A stretch of DNA of 64,000 nucleotides from a virus. The notes under the pieces were generated by a model, which saw nothing but the letters and a program-made list of their open reading frames with translations, ran no database searches and was not told the DNA's origin. The stretch spans positions 44,943 to 108,942 of IMG/VR virus record IMGVR_UViG_3300020439_000004, one strand, 5' to 3'. The translations under genes and the position numbers were made by a program. Shown piece after piece: positions 26,078-61,500 of the stretch; within the stretch, counting starts at the first letter, position 1, and each line of letters begins with the position of its first letter.

Positions 26078-26409
26078 TAATCAACAGAGATTTCTCTTCT
26101 CTCACTTACACATTTTTTAGGCAATGTGATTGTAAGTAGTCCGTCTTTTGTAGTTGATTTGATATGATCAACTGAGACAGCTCCATATAAATTTAATTTT
26201 AATTCCTTTTCACGGCTATCATTTTTAGCTTTAACTTCTAAAACTTCGTTTGTAGCAGTGATAGTGATGTCATCTTTTGAAAATCCAGCAAGCTCTGCTT
26301 CAGCTACATAGACATCTCCAGATTCTTTCATTGTTATATAATTCTTCGTCGTATTTCCAAATACATCAAAGAGTGAGTCGTATAAATGGGTGTTTAATTT
26401 GTAATTCAT
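26077..26409 (-). CDS. Small heat-shock protein (Hsp20/alpha-crystallin family)
   Basis: A 110-residue protein from ATG at 26409. The alpha-crystallin domain covers about residues 25-110: ESGDVYVAEAELAGFSKDDI, TNEVLEVKAKND, then DGLLTITLPKK, the family's A-x-x-x-n-G-V-L and I-T-x-P-K signature. Hsp20 proteins hold unfolding proteins and oligomerise; phages often carry one, probably to help assembly of virion proteins. An upstream TTG at 26448 overlaps the preceding gene, but the ATG has TTGAGT-N17-TAATAA before it and gives the usual family N-terminus, so I prefer it. Confidence 0.85.
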   Translation of the reverse strand: MNYKLNTHLYDSLFDVFGNTTKNYITMKESGDVYVAEAELAGFSKDDITITATNEVLEVKAKNDSREKELKLNLYGAVSVDHIKSTTKDGLLTITLPKKCVSERREISVD

Positions 26410-26444
26410 AATACTTATATTATTAACATAATTTGTGCCATAAC

Positions 26445-41009: not shown

Positions 41010-41610
41010 TCAAAAATATTTAGTTGTAGACACTGAGACTGAAGGTCTTAATTTACATTCTTCTAAAGCTTGGCAACTCTCTTGGATTGTTTGTCAAGGC
41101 AATAAAATTTTAGAAGAACATGACGAGTTTATAGCACATAAAAATTTAAACATCCCAGAGGTTGTTAAAAAAATGACTGGATTTAATTGGGATAAGTATA
41201 ATCAAAAATCTAAATCTCTTTCGAAGGTTTGGTCTAAATTTGAAAGCTATTTATATGACCCAAAATATATTATAGTAGGTCAAAATTTATTGGGGTTTGA
41301 TGTTTATATGTTGGCTCTTTTACAAAAAATGTTAGGTCAACAACCTGACTACTCTTATTTACCTAGAATTTATGACACAAGAGCTTTGGCTAAAGCATAT
41401 AGAGAAAACCTTGATAAACCAAAAGATAATTTCCTAAGTTGGCAGTATAAAATCATTAACAATAGAAGCTTGAAAGCTAAAGTGTCTCAAGGCACTTTAT
41501 TAAAATTCTTTGACATTGACCACGATGAGTCTAAATTACATGACGCTCTTTATGACATAAAAAAATGTTTTGAAGTCTTTTGTGAGTTAAAAAGAAGAAT
41601 GGATTTATGA
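40996..41610 (+). CDS. DnaQ-like 3'-5' proofreading exonuclease
   Basis: A 204-residue DEDDh exonuclease. Exo I: YLVVDTETEGLNL (Asp12, Glu14). Exo II: IIVGQNLLGFDVYML (Asp about 101). Exo III: KLHDALYDIKKCFEVF (His and Asp, about 180-185). It would remove mismatched nucleotides. The gene sits exactly between the PHP and polymerase-core genes, overlapping the first by 14 nt and the second by ATGA. In PolC the same exonuclease is inserted within the PHP domain, so the gene order mirrors that architecture as separate polypeptides. Confidence 0.9.
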   Translation: MLPYNQKYLVVDTETEGLNLHSSKAWQLSWIVCQGNKILEEHDEFIAHKNLNIPEVVKKMTGFNWDKYNQKSKSLSKVWSKFESYLYDPKYIIVGQNLLGFDVYMLALLQKMLGQQPDYSYLPRIYDTRALAKAYRENLDKPKDNFLSWQYKIINNRSLKAKVSQGTLLKFFDIDHDESKLHDALYDIKKCFEVFCELKRRMDL

Positions 41611-44189
41611 TTTTTGATGACTGTACCATATACGATGACTGTGAACCAGCAGGAGTAGAGCTTCCAAAGACCATTGTTAAATCGAGCAAACTCAAAGAAA
41701 TAGGCTTAAATGCTGATAGCTCGACAAAAGAGATTTTATACGAACTTGCTCGAAAGGGTTTAAGAGAAAAGGGTATTACTAAGTATAAAAATAAAGATGT
41801 TTACTTTGAAAGAACTAAACAGGAATTAGAAACATTTGAAGAGTTAGGATTCACTGATTATATATTACTTAACTGGGATGTTTTAAATTTTTGCCACGAT
41901 AATAAAATACCGACTGGAGCGGGTCGAGGTTCTGCGGCAGGTTCCCTTGTATTATACTTACTAGGAGTAACTAATATTGACCCTATTCCTAATAGTTTAT
42001 TTTTTGAGAGATTTGTATCAAAATCTAGAGCTAAAAAAGTTACAGATAAAAAGGGTAAAGAATTTCTTGTGGGTAGTCTTTTGCCTGATGTTGACTCTGA
42101 TATTTCATATGACCAAAGACATAAAGTTATATCTTATATAGAAAAACAACACGAAGGAAGGACAGCTAAAATATTAACATTTAATACTTTTAGTTCAAAA
42201 CTTTGCATTAAAGAGGCGGCAAAATATTTTGATGAGGCTTCTGAGGAACGGGCGATGAGGATTTCAGATTCTATACCTAAACTTCATGGACAGGTCTTGC
42301 CTCTTGAAACTGCTTTTGTAGAAAGTGATAAATTTAGAGAGTGGGCGAGAGAGCATCATCATACTTATAAAAATGCGCTGAAGGTACAAGGATTACCGAA
42401 AAATACTGGGGTTCATCCCTCTGGTATTGCAATTTGTTCTCAAAAAATATCAGATGTAGTTCCTCTTCAAAAAACTAAAGATGGAGATCTTGTCACTGGC
42501 TACAATATGGATGATGTCGCAGACCTGATGGTTAAGTTTGATATCTTGGGATTGAGAACTTTAACAATCGCTCATAAATGCTGTGAAAAAGTTAATATAG
42601 ATATAGATGACATTGACCCTAATGATGATTTTATATATGAAAAGCTTCAAGATTTTAAACATCCAGCAGGTTTGTTTCAAATTTCTGCTGAGACAAACTA
42701 TAGAGTTTGCAAGGATGTAAAGCCTGAAAATTTAACAGAGTTATCTGACGTTATAGCTTTAGCTAGACCTGCGGCATTAGAGCATGTGCAGACATATATA
42801 CAGCAAAAAAGAGCTTTAACTGAGCTAAACTTACATCCAGAGCTAGATAAGATTCTTTCATGGTCTAAAAACGTAATCTTATTTCAAGAGCAGATTATGC
42901 AAATAGCTAATAAAGTTTTTGGGTTTACTTTAGAAGAAGCGGAAACGCTTAGAAGAATAGTTGGAAAGAAAAAAGTTGATCAAATGCCTCAATGGCGACA
43001 AAAGATTTTTGATGCCGCAGAAGAAAAAGGTTTAGATGAAAGAGTAGCAGAGTTTTATTGGGTGTCACTAGAAGCTTCTGCACACTATTCTTTTAATAAA
43101 TCTCATAGCTTTGCTTATGCTGATTTGGCAGCTAAAACTATCTACCTTAAATATAAATATCCGCAAGAATTCTTTTTGTCTATACTAGAGTGTTCTGAAT
43201 TTGAGCCAGATCCATTAGAAACCATTAGCTTAGTTAGCCAAGAATTAAAATCATTTAAAATAGATTTATTGCCACCATGTTTATATAAATCAGACTTTGA
43301 TTTTAAAATAGAAGGCAGAAATATTAGATATGGGTTGAAATCTATAAAAGGTGTTTCAGATAAAAACTTAAAAAGCTTAATTGATTTTAGAGGTTTTCAA
43401 TTTAATGACCGATATGAAATCTTTGTTGCCGCTAAAGAATGTGGTATTCCTATAAATGTTTTGTCTTCTTTGATACAAGCAGGATTAATGGACAATACGT
43501 CTGAGGACAATCCTATTTCAAGAAGCAAATTAGTTTTGCAAGCTCAGTCTTTTAATCTTTTAACTGACAGAGAAAAAAGAAACTTTTCTAGATTAGCGCC
43601 AAGATTGGGATTCAACATATTAAAAGCCATACAACAGGCTTTATTTAATAAAATTCTAGCTGATGACGGAAAAATATTAATAAAGGAAAGTAGATTCAAT
43701 ACCTTTCGCTCTAAATATGACAGGTATAGAGATATTTATTATAAAAATAAAGACCATGAAAAATTTGCGTCTTGGACTTTTGAGAATAGCCTTTTAGGGT
43801 TTTCATATTCATACGACTTAAAACAATGTTTTGAGGATGATGACGATGTAGATAATTTACATTACTTGTCTGACATTGAAGATTTAGGAGACAGAACAAG
43901 GTTTTGTTCTATATGTTTAGTAAAGGACTTCTTCACAAAGGAATCTCAAGCTGGCAATAAATATATGATCATGACTTTATCTGATAATACAGCCACAAAG
44001 AATATGATGTTTATAGATGGCAGAGATAATGAGAAGTTTAGTGACTTTATGAGTTCAAATAAACTAAAGAAAAATGACGTAGTCCACTTGACTGCGAGTA
44101 AATCCAATAATACTATTTTCATTGACGAATTAAAAATAAAAGGCCCAGAGATATACATGTATAAGAGGCAAGTTAAAAAGAAAAAATAG
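41607..44189 (+). CDS. DNA polymerase III alpha, catalytic core
   Basis: An 860-residue family C polymerase lacking the PHP domain. Motifs: GAGRGSAAGSLVLYLLGVTN (palm, about 107-126), catalytic LLPDVDSD (Asp161, Asp163), GVHPSGIAIC, VKFDILGLRTLT (third catalytic Asp), and ETLRRIVGKKK, SYNKSHS-like YSFNKSHSFAYADLA. C-terminal tandem helix-hairpin-helix-like region and an OB-fold (TRFCSICLVKDFF, about 765-860) follow. No clear beta-clamp-binding pentapeptide could be picked by eye. It is the replicative polymerase of the phage, presumably acting with the adjacent PHP and exonuclease proteins. Confidence 0.92.
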   Translation: MIFDDCTIYDDCEPAGVELPKTIVKSSKLKEIGLNADSSTKEILYELARKGLREKGITKYKNKDVYFERTKQELETFEELGFTDYILLNWDVLNFCHDNKIPTGAGRGSAAGSLVLYLLGVTNIDPIPNSLFFERFVSKSRAKKVTDKKGKEFLVGSLLPDVDSDISYDQRHKVISYIEKQHEGRTAKILTFNTFSSKLCIKEAAKYFDEASEERAMRISDSIPKLHGQVLPLETAFVESDKFREWAREHHHTYKNALKVQGLPKNTGVHPSGIAICSQKISDVVPLQKTKDGDLVTGYNMDDVADLMVKFDILGLRTLTIAHKCCEKVNIDIDDIDPNDDFIYEKLQDFKHPAGLFQISAETNYRVCKDVKPENLTELSDVIALARPAALEHVQTYIQQKRALTELNLHPELDKILSWSKNVILFQEQIMQIANKVFGFTLEEAETLRRIVGKKKVDQMPQWRQKIFDAAEEKGLDERVAEFYWVSLEASAHYSFNKSHSFAYADLAAKTIYLKYKYPQEFFLSILECSEFEPDPLETISLVSQELKSFKIDLLPPCLYKSDFDFKIEGRNIRYGLKSIKGVSDKNLKSLIDFRGFQFNDRYEIFVAAKECGIPINVLSSLIQAGLMDNTSEDNPISRSKLVLQAQSFNLLTDREKRNFSRLAPRLGFNILKAIQQALFNKILADDGKILIKESRFNTFRSKYDRYRDIYYKNKDHEKFASWTFENSLLGFSYSYDLKQCFEDDDDVDNLHYLSDIEDLGDRTRFCSICLVKDFFTKESQAGNKYMIMTLSDNTATKNMMFIDGRDNEKFSDFMSSNKLKKNDVVHLTASKSNNTIFIDELKIKGPEIYMYKRQVKKKK

Positions 44190-47153: not shown

Positions 47154-47630
47154 ATGCCTTATACTCTTTCTTTTTTAGATCAAAAATTATATACCAGTTT
47201 ATCTTTTGATGCTGATATAAAATTTCCTGAGTCCAGTGACTTTGTTAAGAGGTTTTGGATTTTGAAGGAATATAAAAAAGTAAGTTCAGATTTGGAGCTT
47301 TCAGAGTCTAAAGATTCTGACAAACAAATGACAAGCTCTTCTTCTTATGAGATACACAAAAGGTTTCAAGGCGATGAACTTATCGTTGAGATAGTTCAAA
47401 GCCTTGCTTTTTGTGAAGAATTTGATTATTTTAGCAAGGCAGATTTTGATTTGCCTACAGGAGATGAAGAATTAGATAAAATGCTTACCGATATAAAAGA
47501 TTCTGATTTTGATGAATCAGTTATAAAAGCTTGTATCTTAGATAGTGTGCTTCAAGGCAACTATCCTCAAAATCCTGATGACGAACCAAAAGAGGAAGAA
47601 GAAGAGTCCTCTGAGGAACCAAGTGAATAG
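47154..47630 (+). CDS. Hypothetical acidic protein
   Basis: A 158-residue protein from ATG at 47154 (171 residues if the upstream ATG at 47115 is used). The N-terminal half includes strands and a helix (MPYTLSFLDQKLYTSLSF, FVKRFWILKEYKKVSSD); the C-terminus is an extreme acidic tail with Glu runs. Acidic tails of this kind are common in phage proteins that bind polymerase clamps or RNA polymerase. I recognise no family. It overlaps the epimerase gene by 8 nt. Confidence 0.6.
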   Translation: MPYTLSFLDQKLYTSLSFDADIKFPESSDFVKRFWILKEYKKVSSDLELSESKDSDKQMTSSSSYEIHKRFQGDELIVEIVQSLAFCEEFDYFSKADFDLPTGDEELDKMLTDIKDSDFDESVIKACILDSVLQGNYPQNPDDEPKEEEEESSEEPSE

Positions 47631-48459
47631 AGTTTTAATAACTGGAGCTGGCGGTTTTATAGGAGGTAACTTAGCCGCATATTTAGAAGCTTGTGGCTTT
47701 CAAGTTACAAGATTTGATATATCTTTAGGTAACACTGGTTATCCAGATATTTTTAATCAAGATTTTGTTATTCATCTTGGTGCAAATTCAAGCACTACAG
47801 AAACCGATCTAAAAAAAATATTAGATCAAAACTTTGAATACTCGGCCAACCTTTACAAGATGTGCGAGGCTTATGAGATAAAGTTTCAATATGCTAGTAG
47901 CGCATCTGTTTATGGCGCATCTAAAACTTTCAAAGAAGATGAGTTTTGTAAACCATTAAGTCCTTATGCTTTTAGCAAGTATATGTTTGACTGTTGGTTA
48001 ATGAATCAAGAATATCCATACCAAGGTTTTAGATATTTTAATGTGTACGGTTTGGGTGAAGATAAAAAAGGAAAGCAAGCTAGTCCTGTTTCAAAATTTA
48101 TAAAAGAAGCGCAGACAGGCGGTAAGATAAAAATCTTTGAGAAAAGCGAAAAATATAAAAGAGATTTTGTTTCTGTAGATGATGTGTGTGAAATGCACTA
48201 CAAGCTTTTGGCAAATGACGCTTCAGGAATATTTAACATAGGTACAGGTGAGCCTATCTCTTTCAGAGATGTAGCAGAGATAATAAAAGAAAATTCTAAC
48301 TCTGAGATAGAAGAAATACCAATGCCCAAAGAGCTAAAAGGGCAGTATCAAAAATTTACAAAAGCTGATATATCAAAGCTAAATGAAATAATTGGTGATT
48401 ATGAGTGGAAAAGTGTAAGTGAATATGTAGAAGAAAACATTGATGCTTTCCTTAATTAA
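47623..48459 (+). CDS. hldD: ADP-L-glycero-D-manno-heptose 6-epimerase
   Basis: A 278-residue extended short-chain dehydrogenase, last enzyme of ADP-heptose synthesis. NAD(P) motif ITGAGGFIGGNLA, then VIHLGANSSTTETDL (family A-x-S-S-T-T-E signature), ASSASVYGAS, Y-x-x-x-K in YAFSKYMFD, FRYFNVYG, KRDFVSVDDV, IFNIGTGEPISF and MPKELKGQYQKFTKADISKL, which follow E. coli HldD nearly motif for motif. The GTG at 47623 gives the usual N-terminus; longer frames up to 47545 add an unrelated lysine-rich extension. Substrate is made by the HldA/HldC genes near 54 kb. Confidence 0.85.
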   Translation: MNRVLITGAGGFIGGNLAAYLEACGFQVTRFDISLGNTGYPDIFNQDFVIHLGANSSTTETDLKKILDQNFEYSANLYKMCEAYEIKFQYASSASVYGASKTFKEDEFCKPLSPYAFSKYMFDCWLMNQEYPYQGFRYFNVYGLGEDKKGKQASPVSKFIKEAQTGGKIKIFEKSEKYKRDFVSVDDVCEMHYKLLANDASGIFNIGTGEPISFRDVAEIIKENSNSEIEEIPMPKELKGQYQKFTKADISKLNEIIGDYEWKSVSEYVEENIDAFLN

Positions 48460-48709
48460 AAGTGTTTTAAAATCAATTGAGCTATATTTATCTTTAAAAA
48501 ATAAGCTCTTCTACATAGAATTAAGACATAACCATGAAAAAACACGCAAAAGAATTATTCAAGAGCTTGAAGATATTAGGGCTAGTGGCGGTGATGCAGA
48601 CCGTGCTGATCTCTTGCGAGACGAACTCATCCGTGAAGACGCAAGTTTTAAATATTTATCAGCCTTCTACGCTGAGTCTAGAGAAGGGAAGTCCGATAAG
48701 GACAACTAA
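48443..48709 (+). CDS. Putative inner-membrane spanin partner or lysis-region helical protein
   Basis: An 88-residue protein with a hydrophobic N-terminus (MLSLIKSVLKSIELYLSLK) and a charged helical remainder (KTRKRIIQELEDIRASG, RADLLRDELIRED) likely to form a coiled coil. A lipoprotein gene lies embedded in another frame, overlapping by 176 nt. This nesting of an inner protein and an outer lipoprotein is the classic Rz/Rz1 layout, but the N-terminal segment is only weakly membrane-like. An ATG at 48443 is chosen over TTG at 48440. Confidence 0.5.
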   Translation: MLSLIKSVLKSIELYLSLKNKLFYIELRHNHEKTRKRIIQELEDIRASGGDADRADLLRDELIREDASFKYLSAFYAESREGKSDKDN

Positions 48710-48803
48710 AGGTATTTACACTCCTCAAGCCGATGAGGTTTGGCACTCTGATGCGAGGTTCCGCAAACTTGAGCGCCAGTTATATTTTCCCAGCAATAAG
48801 TGA
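48534..48803 (+). CDS. Lipoprotein, putative outer-membrane spanin (Rz1-like)
   Basis: An 89-residue protein with a signal peptide (basic start, hydrophobic ILGLVAVMQTVL) and lipobox LISC with the lipidated Cys at 28. The mature part is about 61 residues, with a Pro-containing middle. It lies largely inside the preceding gene in a different frame, as Rz1-type o-spanins do. Spanins fuse inner and outer membranes in the last step of lysis of Gram-negative hosts. Holin and endolysin genes lie a few kb downstream. Other lipoproteins (for example superinfection exclusion) remain possible. Confidence 0.62.
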   Translation: MKKHAKELFKSLKILGLVAVMQTVLISCETNSSVKTQVLNIYQPSTLSLEKGSPIRTTKGIYTPQADEVWHSDARFRKLERQLYFPSNK

Positions 48804-48810
48804 GCTTTTT

Positions 48811-48816
48811 GTGTAA
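48811..48816 (+). promoter_or_regulatory. GTGTAA motif before the fibre gene
   Basis: GTGTAA follows a T-run in the gap after the lipoprotein gene and ends 9 nt before the ATG at 48826. The spacing equals that at 28392 and 51712. Confidence 0.55.
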
Positions 48817-48825
48817 TTAAGACAA

Positions 48826-50376
48826 ATGGCTTTTATTACTGGAATTCCTATTAGAAATAGTATACACACCGAAGAATCCACAAGTGTGGCTGATTGGGGT
48901 AAATACAGGTCAGAATTAACTGGTCTTTATATTACTGGTGAGGGTACTGGAGCGATGTATGAACAATACGCGGCGCAAGATTTCAGAGAGTACAATAAAA
49001 AAATACATGATTTAGGTCTTAATGAATTTAACTCAGACCTTTATTTGAGGCCATTTGATGCTGGGTTTAGATATACGCATGATCCATTATTAGGCAAATA
49101 TAGCAACGCTGCTGGAGCTTATTCTACAAAAGATATAGGTTTTGGAGGTTATCTCATGAGCATCAGAACAAACGCTGATGCACTAAACAGGGAAGCTTAT
49201 GTTTTAGGAGATACTACTGGCAATATTTCATTAGAAGCTATGGTAGCACCAACAGGAACTGGATTTCCTAATTACACATATGAATTTGGTAATACTTTAG
49301 GAACAGGATCTCAAAACGGTCCGTATGAAGTTGAAACCTTTCAATCTAATATATCAGGAAGAGAATATGAACTAACTCGCGTCAAAACTGGTTGGTTTGA
49401 AGATTTAACTGGTTATATGAATACTTATGAGGCGTTTCCCGCTTATGAACTAAGCAGCGATGTTGAAGCGCAAAGTTTTGCTTTAAATATTCCAAAAGCT
49501 CCTGATGGAAGTGTATTAGTCTATCCGTATAGAGTTTTATATTTTGGCTTTTTAAATGTCTGGGTAGTAAATACTTGGAGACTTAAAGATGGGGATACTG
49601 AGGCAACTGAGGAAGCTTTCTATGTTTACAAAAGTGAAGCTGAAGCAGCAGGTGCAGGATTACAATTCGGACCGCAAAATTTTGTTGTAAGCGCGAAGCC
49701 TGTCTATTCCACTTTAGGAGCTTTTGTAGGCCAAGCTAACGCATATGTCACAGACTGGTACGATCAGTCTCATACAGGGTCAGAGCGGAACAACCTCATA
49801 CAAGAAACTGCGGCTGATCAACCTACTATTGTTAATGGCGGCTCTTTAGTGACAGATTCAAGTGGAAATACAGCTTTAGATTTTGACGGAAGCAATCATC
49901 ACATGACATTAAATACTGGGTTTTCTAGTACTTTGAATATAAGTGGTTTAGCTTCTTATACTGTTTTTGAAGCTGATACTACAGGGGCGAATCAAATGGT
50001 TGCCTGTTTAGGAAGTTTTGCTGATTCAACCAAGAGATGGTACTGTCCTTATTTATTTAACGGCACATTTAGTATGAATTATGGTGGAAGTGCTGCTTTT
50101 TCTACTACAGCTAACACAAATTTAAATTTAATTAGCATGACAGCCGATTCAACACAAGGTGCAATGAGAGGTTTCTTAAATGGATCTCAAGTAGGAGGAA
50201 ATGGCACTTTGGAAAATAAAAGTGGAGGAACCTCTCTTGTAGGAGTTGGAGGCTTGGGTGACAGTTTACATTTTAACGGGAAGATTGGAGAGTTTCTTAT
50301 TTATTCAGGCGAAGGCGTATCAACAAATAGAGAAGCTATAGAAGCTAATATAAACAAAAGGTTCGGTATTTATTAA
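48826..50376 (+). CDS. Tail fibre / receptor-binding protein with lectin-like domain
   Basis: A 516-residue structural protein. Residues about 1-280 are beta-rich and unknown. Residues about 305-516 form a concanavalin/LamG-type domain: VTDWYDQSHTGSERNNLIQE, NTALDFDGSNHHMTL, ASYTVFEADTT, GFLNGSQVGGNGTLE and FNGKIGEFLIYSGEGVS, the order found in phage fibres and glycan-binding modules. It probably binds a host surface sugar. It has its own GTGTAA element, standing apart from the main tail operon. Confidence 0.7.
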   Translation: MAFITGIPIRNSIHTEESTSVADWGKYRSELTGLYITGEGTGAMYEQYAAQDFREYNKKIHDLGLNEFNSDLYLRPFDAGFRYTHDPLLGKYSNAAGAYSTKDIGFGGYLMSIRTNADALNREAYVLGDTTGNISLEAMVAPTGTGFPNYTYEFGNTLGTGSQNGPYEVETFQSNISGREYELTRVKTGWFEDLTGYMNTYEAFPAYELSSDVEAQSFALNIPKAPDGSVLVYPYRVLYFGFLNVWVVNTWRLKDGDTEATEEAFYVYKSEAEAAGAGLQFGPQNFVVSAKPVYSTLGAFVGQANAYVTDWYDQSHTGSERNNLIQETAADQPTIVNGGSLVTDSSGNTALDFDGSNHHMTLNTGFSSTLNISGLASYTVFEADTTGANQMVACLGSFADSTKRWYCPYLFNGTFSMNYGGSAAFSTTANTNLNLISMTADSTQGAMRGFLNGSQVGGNGTLENKSGGTSLVGVGGLGDSLHFNGKIGEFLIYSGEGVSTNREAIEANINKRFGIY

Positions 50377-50379
50377 TAT

Positions 50380-50670
50380 ATGAAATATTTACTTTTTAAT
50401 ACAAAACAAGAAGCTCAAAACAGGAGCGCACAAGAAGCACAAGCAAGATGTTGTTCTGGCACTACAAAATATTGGTGGACAGTGAAACAAACTAAAGCGG
50501 GCAAATGGGCTTTATGTATTGATAATCCATATCCAAGGGTAACAGAAGAAACCATAGAATTTGATGGTGAAGAAATGACAGTGCCGACTAACTCTTTAGC
50601 AGGATTAACTCCAACAGAAATATCAAATTTAAAAAATTCTGTCGTCTGGCCTGATGTTCCAACTCTTTAA
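50380..50670 (+). CDS. Small protein downstream of the fibre gene
   Basis: A 96-residue protein 3 nt after the fibre gene. It begins MKYLLFNTKQEAQNRSAQEA and contains KYWWTVKQTKAGKWALCIDN. Small proteins with this kind of sequence commonly follow fibre genes and may be fibre assembly chaperones or baseplate accessory proteins. No named family is certain. Confidence 0.6.
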   Translation: MKYLLFNTKQEAQNRSAQEAQARCCSGTTKYWWTVKQTKAGKWALCIDNPYPRVTEETIEFDGEEMTVPTNSLAGLTPTEISNLKNSVVWPDVPTL

Positions 50671-50713
50671 AAAAAAGTTGATAAATATTATTTAGTGAAT
50701 AATATGTATATAT

Positions 50714-50920
50714 ATGAAAACTATTGAATTCACTGATCAGGAATTGCAGGTTCTCACACAACTTTTGGACATCGCAGTAAAAGCTGGCGGTCTCAATGTT
50801 GCTGAAGCTGCAAGCGTACTCGCAAGGAAAATTTCTCAAGAAATTGAGCAAACTCCTCAATTTGCAGAACCTTCAATCGCTCCCGTAGAGGATGACGAAG
50901 AAGAAAGCGGAGAGGAATAA
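50714..50920 (+). CDS. Small acidic protein with expressed-gene codon bias
   Basis: A 68-residue protein: a helical body (TDQELQVLTQLLDIAVKAGG, NVAEAASVLARKI) followed by a Glu/Asp-rich tail (DDEEESGEE). It uses more C- and G-ending codons (CTC, ATC, GGC) than neighbours, like the capsid gene end at 1-135, so high expression is likely. AT-rich upstream DNA (about 50671-50713) contains TAGTGAATAATATG, partly like the GTGTAA elements. Function unknown. Confidence 0.65.
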   Translation: MKTIEFTDQELQVLTQLLDIAVKAGGLNVAEAASVLARKISQEIEQTPQFAEPSIAPVEDDEEESGEE

Positions 50921-50930
50921 AATATTTCCC

Positions 50931-50957
50931 TTGACGATTACAAAATTGTAATATAAA
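50931..50957 (+). promoter_or_regulatory. Sigma70-like promoter TTGACG ... TATAAA
   Basis: TTGACG at 50931-50936 is followed by TATAAA at 50952-50957 (15-nt spacer) or TAAAGT at 50954-50959 (17-nt spacer). Either would give a nearly leaderless mRNA for the outer-membrane protein. TGTAATATA here also resembles the GTGTAATATACAGT element. Confidence 0.5.
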
Positions 50958-50966
50958 GTTAAGATT

Positions 50967-51644
50967 ATGAAGAAATTTATTCTTACACTACTATTGGGCG
51001 CTATTTTTGGTAGCGCAGCGCATGGGACAACTATTGCAGATTCTTCTGTAGGAGTTGGCTTTTCAGCTTATAACTTCGAAACAAGTAGAGGTTTAGCAGC
51101 TAGAGAAGATGCTCTTGGTTACTCCCTTGATTTAACAGCACCTCTTAACGGCGGAGACCTCTCATTTAATGTCGGTTTGTATGATGTTGATGGAGATTCT
51201 GAAGATTCAGATTATTCTATCACCTATACAAAAGGCATTGAACTATTTGGTCAAAAGCTAGGAGCTACAGCAAGTTTCTCTGGACTTGATTCCACTTTTG
51301 GGGACAGAGATGAAATTGCAGTTGGCTTATCTTACAAGTACTCTCTATTAGATACATCATGGGCAGTTTGGCATGATTTAGATAATGAGTGGTATGGTGT
51401 TGAGATCGGAGCTTCAAGCACTTTTGAGACTCCTATTTCAAGCCTATCAGTAACCCCATTTGTCACTGTTAACCTTGTAGATGAGTATACAGCAGTTGAG
51501 GCTGGTCTTAAAGCAGGTTGGTCTATCACTGATCAATTATCCGTACTCTCTAAGATTTCATATAACAATAATGATTTCGAAGGATCTTCTTTTGAAGTAG
51601 AAGATGAGTGGATTATTGGAGCAGGAATAGGCTTCAAATTCTAA
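50967..51644 (+). CDS. Phage-encoded outer-membrane beta-barrel protein
   Basis: A 225-residue protein with a clear signal peptide (MKKFILTLLLGAIFGSAAHG, cleavage probably after AHG). The rest consists of alternating amphipathic strands with Gly/Tyr turns and ends in IGAGIGFKF: a terminal Phe is the outer-membrane assembly signal. Eight to ten strands would fit. Its own promoter and terminator make it a single-gene unit. Known phage-encoded porins and Omp-like proteins alter host surface receptors and block superinfection; that role is inferred. It also indicates a Gram-negative host. Host-derived origin is possible. Confidence 0.8.
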   Translation: MKKFILTLLLGAIFGSAAHGTTIADSSVGVGFSAYNFETSRGLAAREDALGYSLDLTAPLNGGDLSFNVGLYDVDGDSEDSDYSITYTKGIELFGQKLGATASFSGLDSTFGDRDEIAVGLSYKYSLLDTSWAVWHDLDNEWYGVEIGASSTFETPISSLSVTPFVTVNLVDEYTAVEAGLKAGWSITDQLSVLSKISYNNNDFEGSSFEVEDEWIIGAGIGFKF

Positions 51645-51681
51645 TTTAAATTAATTTTTAATTAGTTTTAATAACAAAATT

Positions 51682-51711
51682 AAAAAGCTCTCCGCAAGGA
51701 GGGCTTTTTTT
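51682..51711 (+). terminator. Rho-independent terminator after the outer-membrane protein gene
   Basis: A 12-bp stem (51682-51693 with 51698-51709, one G-U pair and A/T-rich base) closes a GCAA tetraloop and runs into a T-run. The next GTGTAA element begins directly after it. Confidence 0.93.
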
Positions 51712-51717
51712 GTGTAA
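51712..51717 (+). promoter_or_regulatory. GTGTAA motif before the holin gene
   Basis: GTGTAA starts one base after the terminator T-run and ends 9 nt before the ATG at 51727. Because transcription must restart after the terminator, this is one of the best cases for the motif being a promoter element. Confidence 0.6.
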
Positions 51718-51726
51718 GTACTTTCA

Positions 51727-52044
51727 ATGGAACCAGAAAAATCCTTGTTAAAAGAATTCCTTCAGGGTGGATGGCTAGTCCCTTTGATTGGAGCCGCCGC
51801 CATGTTTGCTAGACTTTTGTCTGCAAATAACGAGTTAAGCTTAAAACAACAATTTAAAAGAATCCTTACAGCCGCTATCGCTTCAGGTATTGCTTGGTTT
51901 GTTCTAGAGCAAACGGATGTATCTTCTCTTACTAAAGCTATAACTTATGGAATAATAGGTGTTGTTAGTCCTGAAGTTATAGGAGGTATAGTTAGATTGG
52001 GTCAGAAGTTTGAGACTAGTCCTTGGAAATTTTTTAAAAAATGA
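51727..52044 (+). CDS. Holin
   Basis: A 105-residue membrane protein with three likely membrane segments: GWLVPLIGAAAMFARLL (about 15-31), ILTAAIASGIAWFVLEQ (about 46-62) and AITYGIIGVVSPEVIGGIV (about 71-89), and a basic C-terminus (KFETSPWKFFKK). Size, topology and its place two genes before the endolysin fit a phage holin that opens the inner membrane at lysis time. It overlaps the next small membrane gene by ATGA. Confidence 0.75.
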   Translation: MEPEKSLLKEFLQGGWLVPLIGAAAMFARLLSANNELSLKQQFKRILTAAIASGIAWFVLEQTDVSSLTKAITYGIIGVVSPEVIGGIVRLGQKFETSPWKFFKK

Positions 52045-52286
52045 AATCTAAGTATATAATATTTTGCATATTAGGTATAGTAGCAGCATTTGCTGCTCAA
52101 TTTCTTTCTATCTACAATGAATTACATGGCTTATTATTACATGGATATAAAACAGAATTATCTGTTGATGATATGAAACATTTGCTTGATGAAAACATGT
52201 ATAATTTTAAATCTTCTATAACAAAAATGTTGGCGTTGCTTTTTGTTATAGGTATTTGCGCGTCGTTTAAGAAAAAATGTTACTAA
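52041..52286 (+). CDS. Small membrane protein in the lysis cassette
   Basis: An 81-residue protein with two membrane segments, YIIFCILGIVAAFAAQFL (about 5-22) and MLALLFVIGICASF (about 62-75), separated by a hydrophilic loop of about 35 residues. It lies between the holin and endolysin genes, so an antiholin, second holin or membrane anchor is likely. No family recognised. It is coupled by ATGA and ends one base before the endolysin ATG. Confidence 0.6.
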   Translation: MKSKYIIFCILGIVAAFAAQFLSIYNELHGLLLHGYKTELSVDDMKHLLDENMYNFKSSITKMLALLFVIGICASFKKKCY

Positions 52287-52287
52287 A

Positions 52288-52908
52288 ATGAATTTTAAAG
52301 GTAAAAAAGAAGTAGTTAAAGCTGTACAAAAACTATTGGGCGTTTCTGCTGATGGGGCTGATGGTCCTGTAACTTGGAATGCTATTTTAGCAAAGTTATC
52401 CACAAAGAATGCTCCAGTGCCAGATGGTGATATACCTCAAAAAATGGTTTCATTAGCTAGAGAAGAAATAGGAGTTTCTGAAGTTGATGGGAGTAACTGC
52501 GGGCCAAGGGTGGATGAATACAAAGCGGCTACTTGGCTTGATCCAGATAAAGGTTGGCCATGGTGTGCTGCTTTTATTTGTTGGCTAGTCAGAGAGGCAA
52601 TTGAAGGTGAGGATGTAAAGTTTAAAAGACCAAGAACTGCTGGTGCTTGGGATTTTGAGAATTGGGCTAAACAGCAAGTTTCAAATGGTATAGATCTTCG
52701 CAAACCAACAAATGGAAACATTAAAGCTGGAGATATAGTTGTATTTACTTTTTCTCATATAGGTATAGCTGTCAAAGATATAGACTCAAGTGGTTATGTA
52801 GTAACTATAGAGGGAAATACAAATGGCGCTGGAAGCAGAGAAGGTGGATCTGTCTTAGAGAAGAAGCGCCATGTTTCTAAAATAAGAAGCAGAATAAGAA
52901 TTCTTTAA
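52288..52908 (+). CDS. Endolysin: peptidoglycan-binding plus CHAP amidase/peptidase
   Basis: A 206-residue lysin. Residues 1-45 form a short peptidoglycan-binding-like helix domain (KKEVVKAVQKLLGVSADGAD, GPVTWNAI). Residues about 50-205 form a CHAP (cysteine, histidine-dependent amidohydrolase/peptidase) domain: catalytic Cys in GWPWCAAFICWLVREA, His in TFSHIGIAV, and Glu/Asn in IEGNTNGA. No signal peptide is present, so export depends on the holin. It cuts the cell wall to release progeny. Confidence 0.88.
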   Translation: MNFKGKKEVVKAVQKLLGVSADGADGPVTWNAILAKLSTKNAPVPDGDIPQKMVSLAREEIGVSEVDGSNCGPRVDEYKAATWLDPDKGWPWCAAFICWLVREAIEGEDVKFKRPRTAGAWDFENWAKQQVSNGIDLRKPTNGNIKAGDIVVFTFSHIGIAVKDIDSSGYVVTIEGNTNGAGSREGGSVLEKKRHVSKIRSRIRIL

Positions 52909-52951
52909 TATTTTGTTGCTTTATTTTCTTTTTACGTTATTTCTTTTTTAA

Positions 52952-53248
52952 ATGAAAGATGTACCTATAAAAGTTGATAGAAATGAAATATTTAATTTTG
53001 TAGTTGGTAAGTCTATTTTTGACCCTATAGAAAAATGCATAGACCCTACTAGGTATGAAGTCTTTGATACTTTCATCTATGATAATGAAACTGACAGAAA
53101 GTATGTACAAGGGCCAGTTTACAATAGATTTTGCTGGGAAGTGACTAAACTAAAAAACTTATCAGAAAATATGACAGGTGCAGAAATTATAAGAATTTGC
53201 GAAGAATTAGAGGAAATAGCCCCCAAACTTGTCAATCTTGAGAAATAA
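52952..53248 (+). CDS. Hypothetical protein after the endolysin
   Basis: A 98-residue acidic protein (MKDVPIKVDRNEIFNFVVGK, with CIDPTRYEVFDTFIYD and a helical C-terminus EIIRICEELEEIAPK). No signal peptide or membrane segment. No recognised family. It may belong to the lysis transcript or to a separate unit; no promoter was recognised in the 43-nt gap before it. Confidence 0.6.
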   Translation: MKDVPIKVDRNEIFNFVVGKSIFDPIEKCIDPTRYEVFDTFIYDNETDRKYVQGPVYNRFCWEVTKLKNLSENMTGAEIIRICEELEEIAPKLVNLEK

Positions 53249-53265
53249 TTCCCCGTTGTGGTTCT

Positions 53266-53293
53266 TTGTGTAATATATTGTATAACCTATAAT
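53266..53293 (+). promoter_or_regulatory. Promoter with GTGTAA and TATAAT
   Basis: TTGTGT (53266-53271) overlaps GTGTAA (53268-53273) and lies 16 nt before a perfect TATAAT (53288-53293). The ATG is 5 nt past the -10 box. Both signal types therefore precede one gene, leaving open which one is used. Confidence 0.55.
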
Positions 53294-53298
53294 ATATT

Positions 53299-53487
53299 AT
53301 GGAAGTAATTCTCAAATTAATTGAAGACAATCCTTGGTTCGGTGTTCTTACCGCCGCAATCGCTTTAGCATCTGCAATTACAGCAGCAACTCCTACACCC
53401 AAAAAAGGTACTATTTGGGCTAAAATCTACGCTCTTATTGATTGGGCTGCGATTAACATAGGAAAAGCTAAAGATAAAGGGGAATAA
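53299..53487 (+). CDS. Small holin-like membrane protein
   Basis: A 62-residue protein with one strong membrane segment, NPWFGVLTAAIALASAITAA (about 11-30), then TPTPKKGTIWAKIYALIDWA and a basic end. This closely resembles short phage proteins annotated as holins (hydrophobic helix, T-x-T-x-x-K-K, amphipathic second helix). It may be a second holin or control the one at 51727. It has its own promoter-like signals. Confidence 0.6.
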   Translation: MEVILKLIEDNPWFGVLTAAIALASAITAATPTPKKGTIWAKIYALIDWAAINIGKAKDKGE

Positions 53488-53490
53488 TCC

Positions 53491-53518
53491 TTGAATAATC
53501 TTTGTGATAGGCTATAAT
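53491..53518 (+). promoter_or_regulatory. Sigma70 promoter TTGAAT-N16-TATAAT
   Basis: TTGAAT at 53491-53496 and a perfect TATAAT at 53513-53518 are 16 nt apart. The next ATG (53526) is 7 nt past the -10 box, so the heptose operon mRNA would be leaderless. Confidence 0.65.
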
Positions 53519-53525
53519 ACTCTTA

Positions 53526-53900
53526 ATGAGTATGCAGCCTATTTTTAGCCGATTAGAAGTTCACCCCAAGGGTTGGGGAGAAGAGCTTTGGATTACCAAC
53601 AATTATAAATATTGTGGTAAAATTTTACGTTTTAAACAGGGGTCTTCCTTCTCAATGCATTATCACATTCAGAAGGAAGAAACTTGGTGTGTCACTAGAG
53701 GTAAACTAAAGTTAGAATATTTTAATTTAGAGACTTCTGAACGCCTTGAAAAAGAATTAGTAGAAGGCGACACTGTTCATTTAAAACCTTGCATCCCGCA
53801 CAAGTTGACAGCATTAGAAGATTCAGATGTCTTTGAAGTCAGCACTCAACATTTCAATGAGGACTCTTATAGAGTAGAAAAAGGCTCATCGCAGAAATGA
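53526..53900 (+). CDS. Cupin-domain protein of the heptose operon
   Basis: A 124-residue single-domain cupin. Motifs: GWGEELWITNNYKYCGKILR, then FSMHYHIQKEETWCVTRG (G(X)5HXH(X)3-4E(X)6G pattern) and VHLKPCIPHKLTALED (second motif). Small cupins of this type resemble sugar-phosphate isomerases and often sit in nucleotide-sugar operons. Here it leads the HldA-HldC-HAD operon and overlaps HldA by ATGA, so a step in heptose supply (for example an isomerase activity) is possible. Substrate cannot be read from sequence. Confidence 0.7.
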   Translation: MSMQPIFSRLEVHPKGWGEELWITNNYKYCGKILRFKQGSSFSMHYHIQKEETWCVTRGKLKLEYFNLETSERLEKELVEGDTVHLKPCIPHKLTALEDSDVFEVSTQHFNEDSYRVEKGSSQK

Positions 53901-54643
53901 AGTTTTTAGTTATAGGTGAAACTTGCAAAGACGAGTTTTGCTATGGCAAAGCTAATCGTTTGTGTCCAGAAGCTCCTGTTCCTGTATTTATACCAGATCA
54001 TAATACAAGCAACTTAGGTATGGCGGCTAATGTTTATGAAAATATGCGGGCTATAGATAACGAGACTCATAAAGATATACCTTTTAAAAATGACATAGCA
54101 TTAAGTACTAATTACTGCGTTGGTTCTAAAACTAGATATATTGACATAGAATCAAATCAAATGTTTTTAAGGGTTGATACAGATAAGTATGAACCTTGTG
54201 ACAAACTGCCAGAAAACATAGAATCATTTGATGCTGTTATTGTTTCAGATTATAACAAAGGATATTTAACAGACTCGCAGTTAAGAGAGATTGCGAGTAG
54301 AAGCAAATTAAGTTTTTTAGATACTAAAAAACAATACAATCAAGAATGGGCTAATTTGTTTACTTTTATTAAGATAAACGATAAAGAGTACAAGGAGAAT
54401 GGTTGGACACATCAAGGAGAGAATTTAATAATCACAAAAGGTTCAAAGGGTTGTTGGTACAATAATAAAGATTATAAACTTAGCAAACCTTCAGAAGTTA
54501 GAGATGTTTCAGGCGCAGGAGATACATTTTTAGCTGCATTTGCTTATTCATATACAGCCACCAAAGATGTTGAATGCTCAATAATATATGCCCAAGATTG
54601 TTGTCAAAGAGTAATTAAAAAGAAAGGTGTTGCTACAATATGA
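53897..54643 (+). CDS. hldA: D-glycero-beta-D-manno-heptose 7-phosphate kinase (HldA type)
   Basis: A 248-residue PfkB-family kinase corresponding to the N-terminal half of HldE. It has RLCPEAPVPVFIP (family R-x-x-P-E-A-P-V-P), NLGMAANVYENM (family G-G-A-x-N-V), VIVSDYNKGYLT, and the catalytic/anion-hole DVSGAGDTFLAAFAY (about 207-221). The full kinase domain of E. coli HldE is about 310 residues; this one is compact, with the lid region shortened. It would phosphorylate heptose-7-phosphate at C1. Overlaps the adenylyltransferase gene by ATGA. Confidence 0.8.
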   Translation: MKFLVIGETCKDEFCYGKANRLCPEAPVPVFIPDHNTSNLGMAANVYENMRAIDNETHKDIPFKNDIALSTNYCVGSKTRYIDIESNQMFLRVDTDKYEPCDKLPENIESFDAVIVSDYNKGYLTDSQLREIASRSKLSFLDTKKQYNQEWANLFTFIKINDKEYKENGWTHQGENLIITKGSKGCWYNNKDYKLSKPSEVRDVSGAGDTFLAAFAYSYTATKDVECSIIYAQDCCQRVIKKKGVATI

Positions 54644-55134
54644 AACATAAAAAAATAATGTCTTTTGACGAGATTAAACAAGAGAGACTTTTTGCAAAGC
54701 AATTAGAAGATGCTGGTATAAAAAAGTTTTTTATATTTACTAATGGATGTTTTGATTTATTTCATGCTGGACATGCTAGCTTACTCAATGCTATGAAAAA
54801 TGCCTGTAGCTTAAATTCAAAGTTGGTTGTTGGCATAAATGGAGATGCGAGCGTTAAATCCATAAAAGGTAAGGATAGACCGATAATACCAGCAAAACAA
54901 AGAGCTTATACAGTAGCCTGTCATGAAGCTGTTGATTATGTTTTTATTTTCAATACTAAAACTGTATCAAAACAACTAAAAGAACTTCAGCCAGATTTTT
55001 GGTGCAAAGGCGGCGATTATGATGAAGATTCTTTAAATAAATCAGAGCTAAAAGCAAAAGGCAATGCTATATTAAAAGTTATACCATTTATAGAAAACAT
55101 AAGCACTAGTGATATTATTAAAAAAATAAAATGA
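54640..55134 (+). CDS. hldC: D-glycero-beta-D-manno-heptose 1-phosphate adenylyltransferase (HldC type)
   Basis: A 164-residue nucleotidyltransferase corresponding to the C-terminal half of HldE. Motifs: FTNGCFDLFHAGHASLL (HxGH), VVGINGDASVKSIKGKDRPI, PAKQRAYTVACHEAVDYV and KGGDYDED; the C-terminus VIPFIENISTSDIIKKI matches the family ISTSxII ending. It would attach AMP to heptose-1-phosphate. In E. coli kinase and transferase are one protein; here they are separate, coupled genes, as in some other bacteria. Confidence 0.85.
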   Translation: MKHKKIMSFDEIKQERLFAKQLEDAGIKKFFIFTNGCFDLFHAGHASLLNAMKNACSLNSKLVVGINGDASVKSIKGKDRPIIPAKQRAYTVACHEAVDYVFIFNTKTVSKQLKELQPDFWCKGGDYDEDSLNKSELKAKGNAILKVIPFIENISTSDIIKKIK

Positions 55135-55469
55135 AATATATTGTAGACATTGATGGCACAATTTGCACACATGACAGTCCAGATACCCCTTATGAGCAAG
55201 CAAGGCCAATAAAAGATAGAATACATTTTTTTAATCAATTATTTGATGCTGGTCATGAAATAGTTTATTGGACTGCTAGAGGGGGAAATAGCGGTAAAGA
55301 TCATTCAGCTTTAACTAAAAAACAGCTTGATGAATGGGGTGTTAAAAGAACAAAACTAATGATGGGGAAACCTCCATATGATTATTGGATTGATGATAAA
55401 GCTTATAATGTAAAAGATTTTTTTATGACTGATACAACAACAGGAAAAACAGAAACAATTACATTATGA
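55131..55469 (+). CDS. HAD-family phosphatase
   Basis: A 112-residue HAD-superfamily protein. Motif I VDIDGTICTH (D-x-D-G-T), motif II VYWTARGG (S/T), Lys region KRTKLMMGKPPYDY, and motif IV WIDDKAYN (D-D). It resembles small capsule/sugar-phosphate HAD phosphatases. Because it is coupled to HldA and HldC by overlap, it may replace GmhB (heptose-1,7-bisphosphate 7-phosphatase), the step between them; GmhB proper is larger and carries a zinc site. The match to the pathway is inference; the HAD fold is well supported. Confidence 0.8.
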   Translation: MKYIVDIDGTICTHDSPDTPYEQARPIKDRIHFFNQLFDAGHEIVYWTARGGNSGKDHSALTKKQLDEWGVKRTKLMMGKPPYDYWIDDKAYNVKDFFMTDTTTGKTETITL

Positions 55470-58234: not shown

Positions 58235-58582
58235 GTGAAAACCATCGTAAAAAAGACCATAAAGTTTGAAACAAAGCGGCACGACTTTGATAATGATTTT
58301 GCATATATTGAACATTGGCAGAATACAACGCTCAAAGATTGCTATTTTGCAGAAAAACAATATCTTTTTCCAGATGGATCGCTAAAAATAGGTGGTACTA
58401 AGTATTTTTATTCGCCTTTCTCTGGAGAAGATATAGAAAAAGAGATCAAACCCGTTAATTTTAATAAATTTAAATGGTTTGACAGATTATTTTATATAAA
58501 CAGAGAAGGTGAGATTTGTCCTATTAACCAAAAGTGTGAGTTAGACAACGGATTATCTTCTACAAAAAATGAAGATATTTAA
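58235..58582 (+). CDS. Hypothetical protein before the giant fibre gene
   Basis: A 115-residue protein starting with GTG. It contains many aromatic residues (YFAEKQYLFPDGSLKIGGTK, KWFDRLFYINREGEICPI) and looks beta-rich. It overlaps the fibre gene by one base (TAATG), so it is probably a structural or assembly partner of the fibre. No family recognised. Confidence 0.6.
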   Translation: MKTIVKKTIKFETKRHDFDNDFAYIEHWQNTTLKDCYFAEKQYLFPDGSLKIGGTKYFYSPFSGEDIEKEIKPVNFNKFKWFDRLFYINREGEICPINQKCELDNGLSSTKNEDI

Positions 58583-61500
58583 TGGCTAACATATTTGAAG
58601 ACGGATTTGTAGATACTTCTCAGCACGTTTATAGGGATTTTAGTGTTCCAAACACTGATCCTTTTGGTGTTAGCATATTTGCGAATACCAATTCAAATGG
58701 TGTACCAACTAGCTATAGCTATAGTTTCAACCAAGCTTATGCTTTTAATAGCGCTATAGGGTCTGGAGAGTTGAGTAGAGCTAGTGGAGTTATAGAAGGA
58801 ATGGATGATTCCTTCACTGTTCCAGTGGGTGAGGATATTGAGTTCAAAGTTGGCTTAAGGATAAACAAACAAAACTTAATAATAGAAAAAGCAACTTTCT
58901 ATACGGGAGAGCCTTCTCAAGAAGGACAAGATGAAAGTTCAGGTATTTACCCAGTTTTTGCTTATAAAACAGAAGATAATGATAAGTTTTATACTGGTGT
59001 TTATCAAATATGCACTGTTAGAGACGGAAGTGTTATCACTAGAACCATAAGGGATAATATTTATTTAGATAATATCCAAATCAAACAGCTTGGCGTAACG
59101 GGCGCTCCTTCAAATGGTGAAGGTGGGCAGGTTCACCTAATTCAAGAATCTGGTCAGTATGACAGTTCTGTACCAATTCTTTTTAGAGGTATTTCAGGAG
59201 GATCTGGAATACAAGTTACTTATGATTCTACTAATGCATCTGGTGGTAATTTTATCGTTATAGATACAACTGGCGCTGCTGGGGGCGGCTACGGGCCTGT
59301 TTGGACTGGAGCTAATACTGGTGATTATGGTGAACCTGTATATGTAGACGGAACAGGGCCAGTTGCCTTAGATAAAGCAGCTTTTAGAAAATTAAAATCA
59401 TCTGATGATTCTGTTGGGATAGGATCGGCAGATTCTAACACTACTATAGATTTTACTGTTGACCTTCAAAGCACGACAGATGGTGGCAACACTACCACTA
59501 ATGATATCAATATAAATGGGTCTAAACTTTATTTTGATGGCGATAGTAATAAATCACTAGAAGGAGATACCGATGATACTCTTTTATTAGGTATAGGTGT
59601 TACTAATCTAAAATCAAAACAAGCTGATGTAGTAAGCTTATTCCCTGATAACTCTGTAGCTATGGCTACAATGGATTACAGTATAAATGCTACCTCTCCA
59701 GCGACAGGTGCTGTAATTATTGGAGGTACAGGAAATAGAATAAGCGGTCATTACAATGTAATAACTGCGGGTGTTTTTAATAAAATTTCAGGTAAGGATT
59801 TTAACTTTATTGGGGGAGGTTCAGGCAATGACGTAAATTTTGCTCAATTTTCATCTTCTCTTGGGGGTAAAAACAACGATATAAGTGGTGCTAATTATTC
59901 TGTTTTATTAGGTGGAGATCAGAATTTAATTAAAACAGGACATGCACATTTTCTTGGTGGAGGTGTACAGAACAAAATTTCAGGTAGTGCTAGCATAATT
60001 TCCAATGCTTTAGTTGGAGGAACAGAAAACAAAATACTTGATGCTACTTACTCATTCATCGGTGCAGGAGCGACAAATACAATTTATGCTAATAACTCTG
60101 TAATTGGTGGAGGTACAAGCAATATAGCTTCTGGTGATTCCTCTGTAATCATGGGAGGTAGCAATAATAAAGTTTTAGCTGATTATGGATTAGCTGCTGG
60201 TAGATATTCTACAGTACAAGAAAACCATGATGGCGCTTTTGTTTTATCAGATAGCAACACAACAGAAACTTTATCTTCTGGCGCAAATACTTTAACACTA
60301 AATTTTAAAAGCGGTGTTTATGTTGACTCTGATAGTGGTATTTATATAAATGGTAATCCTGTACTAACAGGAGTTAGTGGATCTGAGGGAGATACTTTAC
60401 AGATTGTTACTGATAGAGGTGCTACTACAACAAATGCTATTTCACTTTATAACTTAAGTGATATTAATCCAAGATTATCTGTAGGTAGAGCGTCAAATCA
60501 ATCAATTGATATAAATGTAGTAGATCTTGATAACACTATTACAGCTAACCAAGATAGTGACGCTGACGGAGATCATAAATTTATTCTTGATAGAGAGTTT
60601 TCTGGTACAGGAAAAAACGACTTCCAAATTGCTAAATCTGGAGTTACACAGCTAACAGTAGATACTGATGGTAATGTAGGTATTGGCACAGATGTACCTT
60701 CAGGAAAATTAGATGTCAATGGAGCAATTCATGCAAGAGGAGGCACAGTTGCTGGCAATACAGGAGAATCTAACACTACTAATGCAGCTATAGTTCTTCA
60801 AGATAATAACTATATTTACGGACAGACTTCTAATAATTACTTAAGAAAGATTATCGGAAGAGACTCCGCTGGAGTAATTACTGTAGGACAAGGCGGAACT
60901 GCTATTGTAAAAGAAATTTCATTTGAAGCGGGTAATCATAGTGATGGAAAATACACCTTCCATTCAGGAACTACAGAATTAGCAAGAATACAAGCGGATG
61001 GTAACATGGGTATTGGCACAGATTCTCCAAGTGCTAGACTTCATGTCAACGGCCCTTCTGCGGGATTTGCAGAAGCTTTAAGGTTGCAAAGGGCAGGTGG
61101 TAATTATTATTCTGTTGGTTTAGATAATAGTAGAGTTAATTTTGCTTATAATAGTCAAACTACTGCAAACTCAACGCTTGTTATAGATGGTCCTAGTACT
61201 AGAGTTGGTATAGGTACACATGCTCCAAATCAAACTCTTCATGTTGATGGTAAAACTCAATTAGGAACAAATGGATTCACAGAAGGTGGATTGATTATAA
61301 ATTATGCCTCATTAAGTGAGACAAAAGGTGGAGCAAATACAATTCTAGGTAATGCGGTATATGCAGGAACCACAAATAATACATTCAGAAGAACAAAAGG
61401 CGATGCAGGTAATTATATTGCTTTAGGCTACAATAAAGGAATAACTTTCCATACTAATGTCACAGGAAATACCAGTGATGATTATGATATAAATAATCAT

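Follow-up and report, generated by a model that had tools for sequence, protein, structure and literature searches.

Can a virus make an activated heptose when it encodes no recognizable enzyme for the first step of the pathway? The question is raised by a 64,000-nucleotide stretch of viral DNA (the window; bases 44943–108942 of the 108,942-bp virus record IMGVR_UViG_3300020439_000004) in which five heptose genes are present at two loci. The terminase of this virus is only 24–26% identical to those of the best-matching named phages, so the virus is distant from all described phages and is no known cyanophage. The bacterial pathway to ADP-L-glycero-β-D-manno-heptose uses GmhA, HldE (or HldA plus HldC), GmhB, and HldD; the virus encodes relatives of the kinase, the adenylyltransferase, and the epimerase together with a HAD phosphatase that is a candidate for the GmhB step but, unlike the bacterial pathway, it has a cupin in the place of the SIS-fold isomerase GmhA. 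From its gene context and phylogenetic profile, this cupin is probably a sedoheptulose-7-phosphate isomerase that replaces GmhA. The five genes are as follows:

47623–48459, plus strand: HldD epimerase (TIGR02197, 1.6e-69; PDB 1eq2, 1.8e-48; YAFSK motif)
53526–53900, plus strand: cupin of 124 residues, the proposed sedoheptulose-7-phosphate isomerase replacing GmhA (Cupin_2, phrog_7851, context, phylogenetic profile)
53897–54643, plus strand: HldA-like D-glycero-β-D-manno-heptose 7-phosphate kinase, a compact PfkB protein of 248 residues (TIGR02198, 1.1e-31)
54640–55134, plus strand: HldC-like heptose 1-phosphate adenylyltransferase of 164 residues (TIGR02199, 2.6e-39; PDB 5x9q, 5.1e-24)
55131–55469, plus strand: small cap-less HAD phosphatase of 112 residues (phrog_1238; nearest PDB entry 9iqw)

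Each of the genes for the cupin, HldA, HldC, and the HAD (53526–55469) overlaps its successor by the 4 nt ATGA, which makes four such overlaps in a row; the chain runs on past the HAD gene into an open reading frame (ORF) that encodes 178 residues without a convincing family match. The module has a G+C content of 0.327, similar to the 0.342 of the whole window. The module genes recur in relatives of the virus at 68–99% identity as well as in unrelated cyanophages, and this recurrence excludes a chance gene set.

An initial annotation of the window had read these genes as an ADP-heptose pathway; its coordinates and gene identities are confirmed by family matches, motifs, PDB matches, and ATGA coupling, and the pathway reading is supported in that HldA, HldC, and HldD each match heptose families best. 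HldD matches TIGR02197 with 234 bits (curated cut-off 274.6) and GalE with only 4.5e-20, as expected for an HldD-type 6-epimerase; its best match in the PDB is ADP-L-glycero-D-mannoheptose 6-epimerase (1eq2). With 248 residues, the kinase falls ∼70 short of the 315 of the TIGR02198 model and scores under its curated cut-off, but it retains the PEAPVP and GAGDTF motifs; when the profile of its phage family is compared with the PDB, D-β-D-heptose 7-phosphate kinase (4e84) ranks first (6.3e-28) and ribokinase next (1.6e-10), which places it in the HldA family. HldC contains the GxFDxxHxGH and ISTS motifs and is of the HldC type, with 134 bits against TIGR02199 (cut-off 181.5) vs 27 bits against TIGR01518, the glycerol-3-phosphate cytidylyltransferases.

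The initial annotation did not see GmhA, 'unless the cupin contributes'. A profile search across the complete virus record likewise found no SIS-fold GmhA (SIS_2), and the aside is probably the key to the locus: both the genes around the cupin and its phylogenetic profile suggest it as the replacement for GmhA. Scans of viral contigs yielded at least 550 relatives each of the cupin and of HldA (at least 555 in one scan). The cupin query retrieved 78 viral loci, of which 63 contain HldA, 52 HldC, 42 HldD, 31 the small HAD, and 7 a true GmhB; none contains GmhA. In 63 of 76 viral loci the cupin is the immediate neighbor of a heptose gene, a position that 18% of the other unlabeled ORFs in the same loci share. 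In 75 viral loci found by HldA, the cupin is present in 40 and GmhA again in none. GmhA does occur in 2 of 50 whole viral records, those of SynMITS9220M01 and Cr30, which served as positive controls. Almost all the phage sets that we examined have a GmhA step without a gene and a cupin without a step.

Two arrangements bear on the role of the cupin. In six viral loci (L121–L124, L127, and L131) the genes run HldE-HldD-cupin-GmhB, and the HldE proteins that were tested are fused as in Escherichia coli; in this order GmhA is the sole missing step and the cupin the sole unassigned gene. The window and L121 cupins share 55% identity. The second arrangement is found in the GDP-heptose route, which has two steps in common with the ADP-heptose route, those of the isomerase (GmhA) and the phosphatase (GmhB). 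Bellamy and SynMITS9220M01 encode a GHMP kinase and a guanylyltransferase instead of HldA and HldC, and in both the cupin is located between HddA and HddC; in Bellamy the same HAD is present as well. SynMITS9220M01 also has a second HddA, whose coupled gene is a true GmhA and not the cupin. Similarly, in Caulobacter phage Cr30 a heptose kinase is paired with one isomerase gene, as in the window, but the partner of its HddA is a true GmhA.

In bacteria, a genome scan with the cupin profile identified 51 loci. Our sample of the Planctomycetota consisted of 118 genomes, 98 of them with HldC; we counted the cupin strictly (E ≤ 1e-25), a cut-off that, like that of 1e-40 for a second phylum, was set after seeing the hits, which in the Planctomycetota split into a strong and a weak group around it. 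The strict cupin is present in 11 of the 118 genomes; all 11 encode HldC/HldE, and none encodes GmhA. Among the 98 genomes with HldC, 11 have the cupin only, none has both, 80 have GmhA only (that is, 80 of the 87 without the cupin), and 7 have neither (Fisher p = 2.8e-10, to be read in the light of an rpoA tree on which the cupin state needs 3 changes, 2–4 over bootstraps, that is, about three independent events and not eleven). A recognizable GmhB is kept in 6 of the 11 genomes with the cupin. Six deltaproteobacterial/Binatota-type genomes (G002, G005, G007, G011, G026, and G256) also encode HldE and the cupin and no GmhA proper. In the sample of the second phylum, both genomes with a strict cupin are without GmhA proper; the Fisher test gives p = 0.03 with these two and p = 0.07 with weaker cupins included, which is weak support taken alone. 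The weaker cupins form a separate, fully supported, long-branched clade.

The cupin belongs to phrog_7851 over its full length (1e-38; residues 9–120 on 4–116 of 117). In Pfam it matches Cupin_2 (1.4e-6) and, over part of the model, Lyx_isomer (1e-4), both above their cut-offs; the match to the C-terminal family of phosphomannose isomerase (0.0023) is under the cut-off. Eight residues are invariant in an alignment of 55 sequences: H45, H47, E52, and H92, which constitute the classical cupin metal site, together with K32, K50, E104, and D113. The cupin barrel and the HxH...E...H metal site are shared with the cupin sugar isomerases, and D-lyxose/D-mannose isomerases and phosphomannose isomerase are among the neighbors of the cupin in Foldseek (AlphaFold model, pLDDT 96) and HMMER searches; the phage cupin is 24% identical to the Thermofilum lyxose isomerase in the fold alignment and constitutes a distinct family. 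These isomerases, like GmhA, convert a ketose to a manno-type aldose, so the stereochemistry fits a GmhA-type reaction. We know of no cupin sugar isomerase that acts on sedoheptulose 7-phosphate, and full-text literature searches found no paper that joins a cupin with GmhA or with sedoheptulose 7-phosphate isomerase.

Several observations count against the cupin as a substitute for GmhA. In 35 of the 75 viral loci found by HldA, neither the cupin nor GmhA is located within 8 kb. Dioxygenases and decarboxylases also rank high in the fold and sequence searches with the cupin, so the fold alone singles out no isomerase. The Fisher value for the Planctomycetota ignores kinship, and seven genomes in that sample encode HldC with neither isomerase; five of the 11 with the cupin are without a recognizable GmhB, so GmhA is not always the sole loss. 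In the second phylum, the weaker class of cupin is present in genomes with GmhA, and the cupin and GmhA occur together in six cellular bins (G004, G006, G012, G016, G017, and G024). In G006 the two isomerase types are in different operons on one contig, the cupin in HldC-cupin-HldA-HldD (L034) and GmhA beside a second HldE-like frame, and the cupin contig of G012 looks viral; the co-occurrence in G004, G016, G017, and G024 is unexplained. Finally, the scores of HldA, HldC, and HldD are all below the curated TIGR cut-offs, so we assign them from their best-matching families, motifs, PDB matches, and gene context. The HldA loci with neither isomerase (among L160–L234, e.g., L177, L178, and L180) possibly use another isomerase or depend on the host.

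These 35 loci are also a point in favor of an alternative in which the phage boosts the later steps only and uses the GmhA of the host, with the cupin performing some other heptose-linked task (e.g., epimerization or isomerization of a nucleotide-heptose, or glycan tailoring). Cupins catalyze many kinds of reaction and are often encoded in sugar clusters; the close PDB neighbors of this one include CapF, quercetinase, and oxalate decarboxylase, and in some bacteria it adjoins a Gmd-like dehydratase. However, reliance on host GmhA leaves unexplained the absence of GmhA from 11 of 11 Planctomycetota with the cupin and HldC, the operons that are complete but for GmhA, and the presence of one cupin in both ADP- and GDP-heptose sets, whose sole joint steps are those of GmhA and GmhB; we regard this alternative as rather unlikely.

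The HAD bears on what sugar the pathway handles. It contains the DxDGT, TARG, and DDK motifs and, by sequence, fold, and motifs, is a small HAD of the phrog_1238/AfhF-like type (phrog_1238, 4.5e-24). The top fold match of its AlphaFold model (pLDDT 84, with lower confidence at the C-terminus) is PDB 9iqw, the D-arabinose 1,5-diphosphate phosphatase AfhF of phage HY126 (33% identity in the fold alignment), which is also the nearest PDB entry by sequence; T4 polynucleotide kinase/phosphatase and then GmhB follow, with GmhB structures only from rank 14. The GmhB family profile (TIGR00213) gave no match to the HAD, and EcbF-BcbF (4.4e-4) and HAD_PNKP (4.7e-5) matched instead, so by profile it lies outside the HisB/GmhB family of the bacterial pathway. 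The structural model supports a sugar-bisphosphate phosphatase for which a pentose and a heptose substrate would both be possible. In the cupin loci, the HAD (31) and a true GmhB (7) are never found together, so the two look interchangeable, and we propose that the HAD acts as the heptose 1,7-bisphosphate 7-phosphatase, that is, in the GmhB role. Although the GmhB profile does not match it, the HAD may still function like GmhB, as the initial annotation suggested. Public records of the Kyanoviridae widely label the small HAD (phrog_1238) 'phosphoheptose isomerase' and the cupin (phrog_7851) 'cysteine dioxygenase' or 'nucleotidyltransferase'; judged by their sequences, neither protein fits these labels. 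The HAD was considered as the missing GmhA because of its public label and was rejected on its HAD motifs and HAD fold.

With AfhF as the nearest solved relative of the HAD, a second alternative is that the HldA and HldC relatives now serve the synthesis of a different nucleotide sugar (e.g., a pentose), as in DNA-arabinosylating phages, and that the HAD is an AfhF-type arabinose 1,5-bisphosphate phosphatase. AfhF acts on a sugar 1,n-bisphosphate in a comparable series of kinase, phosphatase, and nucleotidyltransferase steps, and relatives of the HAD are common in Acinetobacter and Escherichia phages; the arabinosyl-modified DNA of RB69 is made with an arabinose 5-phosphate isomerase-like protein (PMC6024577). 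However, the HY126/RB69-type route uses a pentose, probably for DNA modification, and the RB69 isomerase is of the SIS type; in the window, the best family matches of HldA, HldC, and HldD are all to heptose enzymes, HldD would have no place in a pentose route, and true GmhB occupies the position of the HAD in sister operons. None of the ORFs that we read resembled a cytosine hydroxymethylase gene, although no profile search for one was made. Repurposing for a pentose is, in our estimation, improbable.

Sedoheptulose 7-phosphate is an ordinary host metabolite. We consider it fairly likely that the virus encodes a self-sufficient route from it to ADP-L-glycero-β-D-manno-heptose with the cupin as the substitute for GmhA. 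The reactions, above all that of the cupin, we infer: the cupin would isomerize sedoheptulose 7-phosphate to D-glycero-D-manno-heptose 7-phosphate (normally the step of the SIS-fold GmhA), the compact HldA would phosphorylate C1, the small HAD would remove the 7-phosphate, HldC would add AMP, and HldD, encoded by the second locus, would epimerize C6. A glycosyltransferase of family GT9 that is encoded in two pieces would then transfer the heptose to a glycan of the host envelope or the virion.

The initial annotation regarded a nearly full set of these genes as unusual in phages, and this claim fails. The Kyanoviridae (P-SSM2, S-SSM7, S-SM2, P-TIM68, S-CAM1, S-CAM3, and others) carry the same five families together, usually adjacent, and at least 555 relatives are present on viral contigs. 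By blastp of each window protein against the loci of P-SSM2, S-SM2, S-SSM7, and P-TIM68, the families are those of the cyanophage clusters T4-GC 304 (HldC), 305 (HldA), 306 (small HAD), 307 (cupin), and 308 (HldD). The co-occurrence of T4-GC 304, 305, 307, and 308 in three phages was reported in 2010, with a functional link judged likelier and no pathway named (PMC3037559); no function had previously been given for the T4-GC 307 cupin. The role of the cupin appears to be new, and the co-occurrence of most of the module genes in phages was already known. Unlike the Kyanoviridae, this virus is not a cyanophage, its order is cupin-HldA-HldC-HAD, and its HldD is 5 kb upstream of the other four, so the five genes are not contiguous; the module genes of S-SM2 are scattered too. 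The compact HldA of this virus is 34–43% identical to that of the Kyanoviridae. That the genes are nonfunctional filler DNA for headful packaging, once suggested and left open for cyanophage lipopolysaccharide (LPS) clusters (PMC3037559), is very improbable, given that relatives at 68–99% identity retain open reading frames, catalytic motifs, and ATGA coupling, and that unrelated phages have these families as well.

More broadly, we lean toward the view that a metal-dependent cupin isomerase replaces GmhA in both ADP- and GDP-heptose synthesis, has spread through hundreds of phages, has repeatedly entered bacterial genomes (Planctomycetota and Binatota-type deltaproteobacteria), and enables phages to synthesize activated heptose where the host lacks GmhA. 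If this is correct, a gap in the textbook pathway would be filled, and the many bacteria and phages that encode HldE or HldA/HldC without GmhA would gain an assigned entry enzyme that is unrelated to the SIS-fold GmhA. Scattered and wrongly labeled cyanophage genes would become a complete heptose pathway, and the question whether phage LPS gene clusters work would become testable. The public labels 'phosphoheptose isomerase' for the HAD and 'cysteine dioxygenase' for the cupin are a concrete annotation warning. The SIS-fold GmhA has been proposed as an antibiotic target (PMC5387315).

The initial annotation also suggested that GT9-like proteins elsewhere in the window could use the product. 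These are:

22638–24359, minus strand: fusion protein, a GT4-like domain followed by the N-terminal GT9 half (phrog_2170; heptsyl_trn_III N-terminus, residues 477–521, E = 8.2e-4)
21517–22641, minus strand: C-terminal half of the split GT9 with a C-terminal region of unknown type (PF01075, 5.7e-8, profile 170–227)
31881–32699, plus strand: possible GT9-like protein, marginal (PF01075, E = 0.033, below the Pfam cut-off)

The region 21517–24359 encodes a single GT9 over two coupled ORFs; the GT9 domain of the second is recognized above the cut-off in its C-terminal half only. The GT4-like/GT9 architecture is kept in related viral contigs (L278–L288), with the split conserved to ∼30% identity. 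An assembly frameshift was considered and rejected on this conservation and on the occurrence of the split in L142. The latter contig, which shares a neighboring ribonucleotide reductase gene with this virus, has a heptose operon with the order HldC-GT9N-GT9C-HldD-HAD-cupin (HldA is 3 kb further) in which the GT9 halves stand alone (L142:2757–3690); these halves inside the operon are the best evidence for a phage transferase that uses heptose. The suggestion of the initial annotation gains support from this operon: the two-piece GT9 is the likeliest user of the predicted heptose product, on a host-envelope or virion glycan, and the 31881 protein, for which only three viral relatives were found, is marginal. 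In cyanobacteria, LPS is reported to be without heptose (PMC4515613), so the product in cyanophages, at least, is unlikely to be ordinary core heptose.

Relatives of the module show two further variations. In L008 (7234–7800) and at the same place in L013, extra sequence is present between HldC and HAD; that in L008 is a Methyltransf_24 gene, and the position is a cargo slot. In L154 and L158, HAD-cupin is followed by a close homologue (E = 1e-192 and 2e-183) of a protein encoded by another glycan cluster in the window:

33379–34449, plus strand: GDP-mannose 4,6-dehydratase-like SDR (PF16363, 1.7e-95)

This HAD-cupin-dehydratase arrangement may mark a GDP-6-deoxy-heptose variant.

Other features of the window were noted, the first four of them by eye. 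An outer-membrane β-barrel-like protein with a signal peptide-like start is encoded between the two heptose loci (50967–51644), near an endolysin-like gene at 52288. A DNA polymerase III α-like protein is apparently split over consecutive ORFs (PHP-like, exonuclease-like, and polymerase; 40308–44189), and a small heat-shock (Hsp20)-like protein is encoded on the minus strand (26077–26448). Very long fiber-like proteins with repeated VGIGT(N)P units are encoded at 58582–64000 and in L005 (2–11287); both contig ends are inside these repeats, and a repeat may thus mark the point at which the record breaks off.

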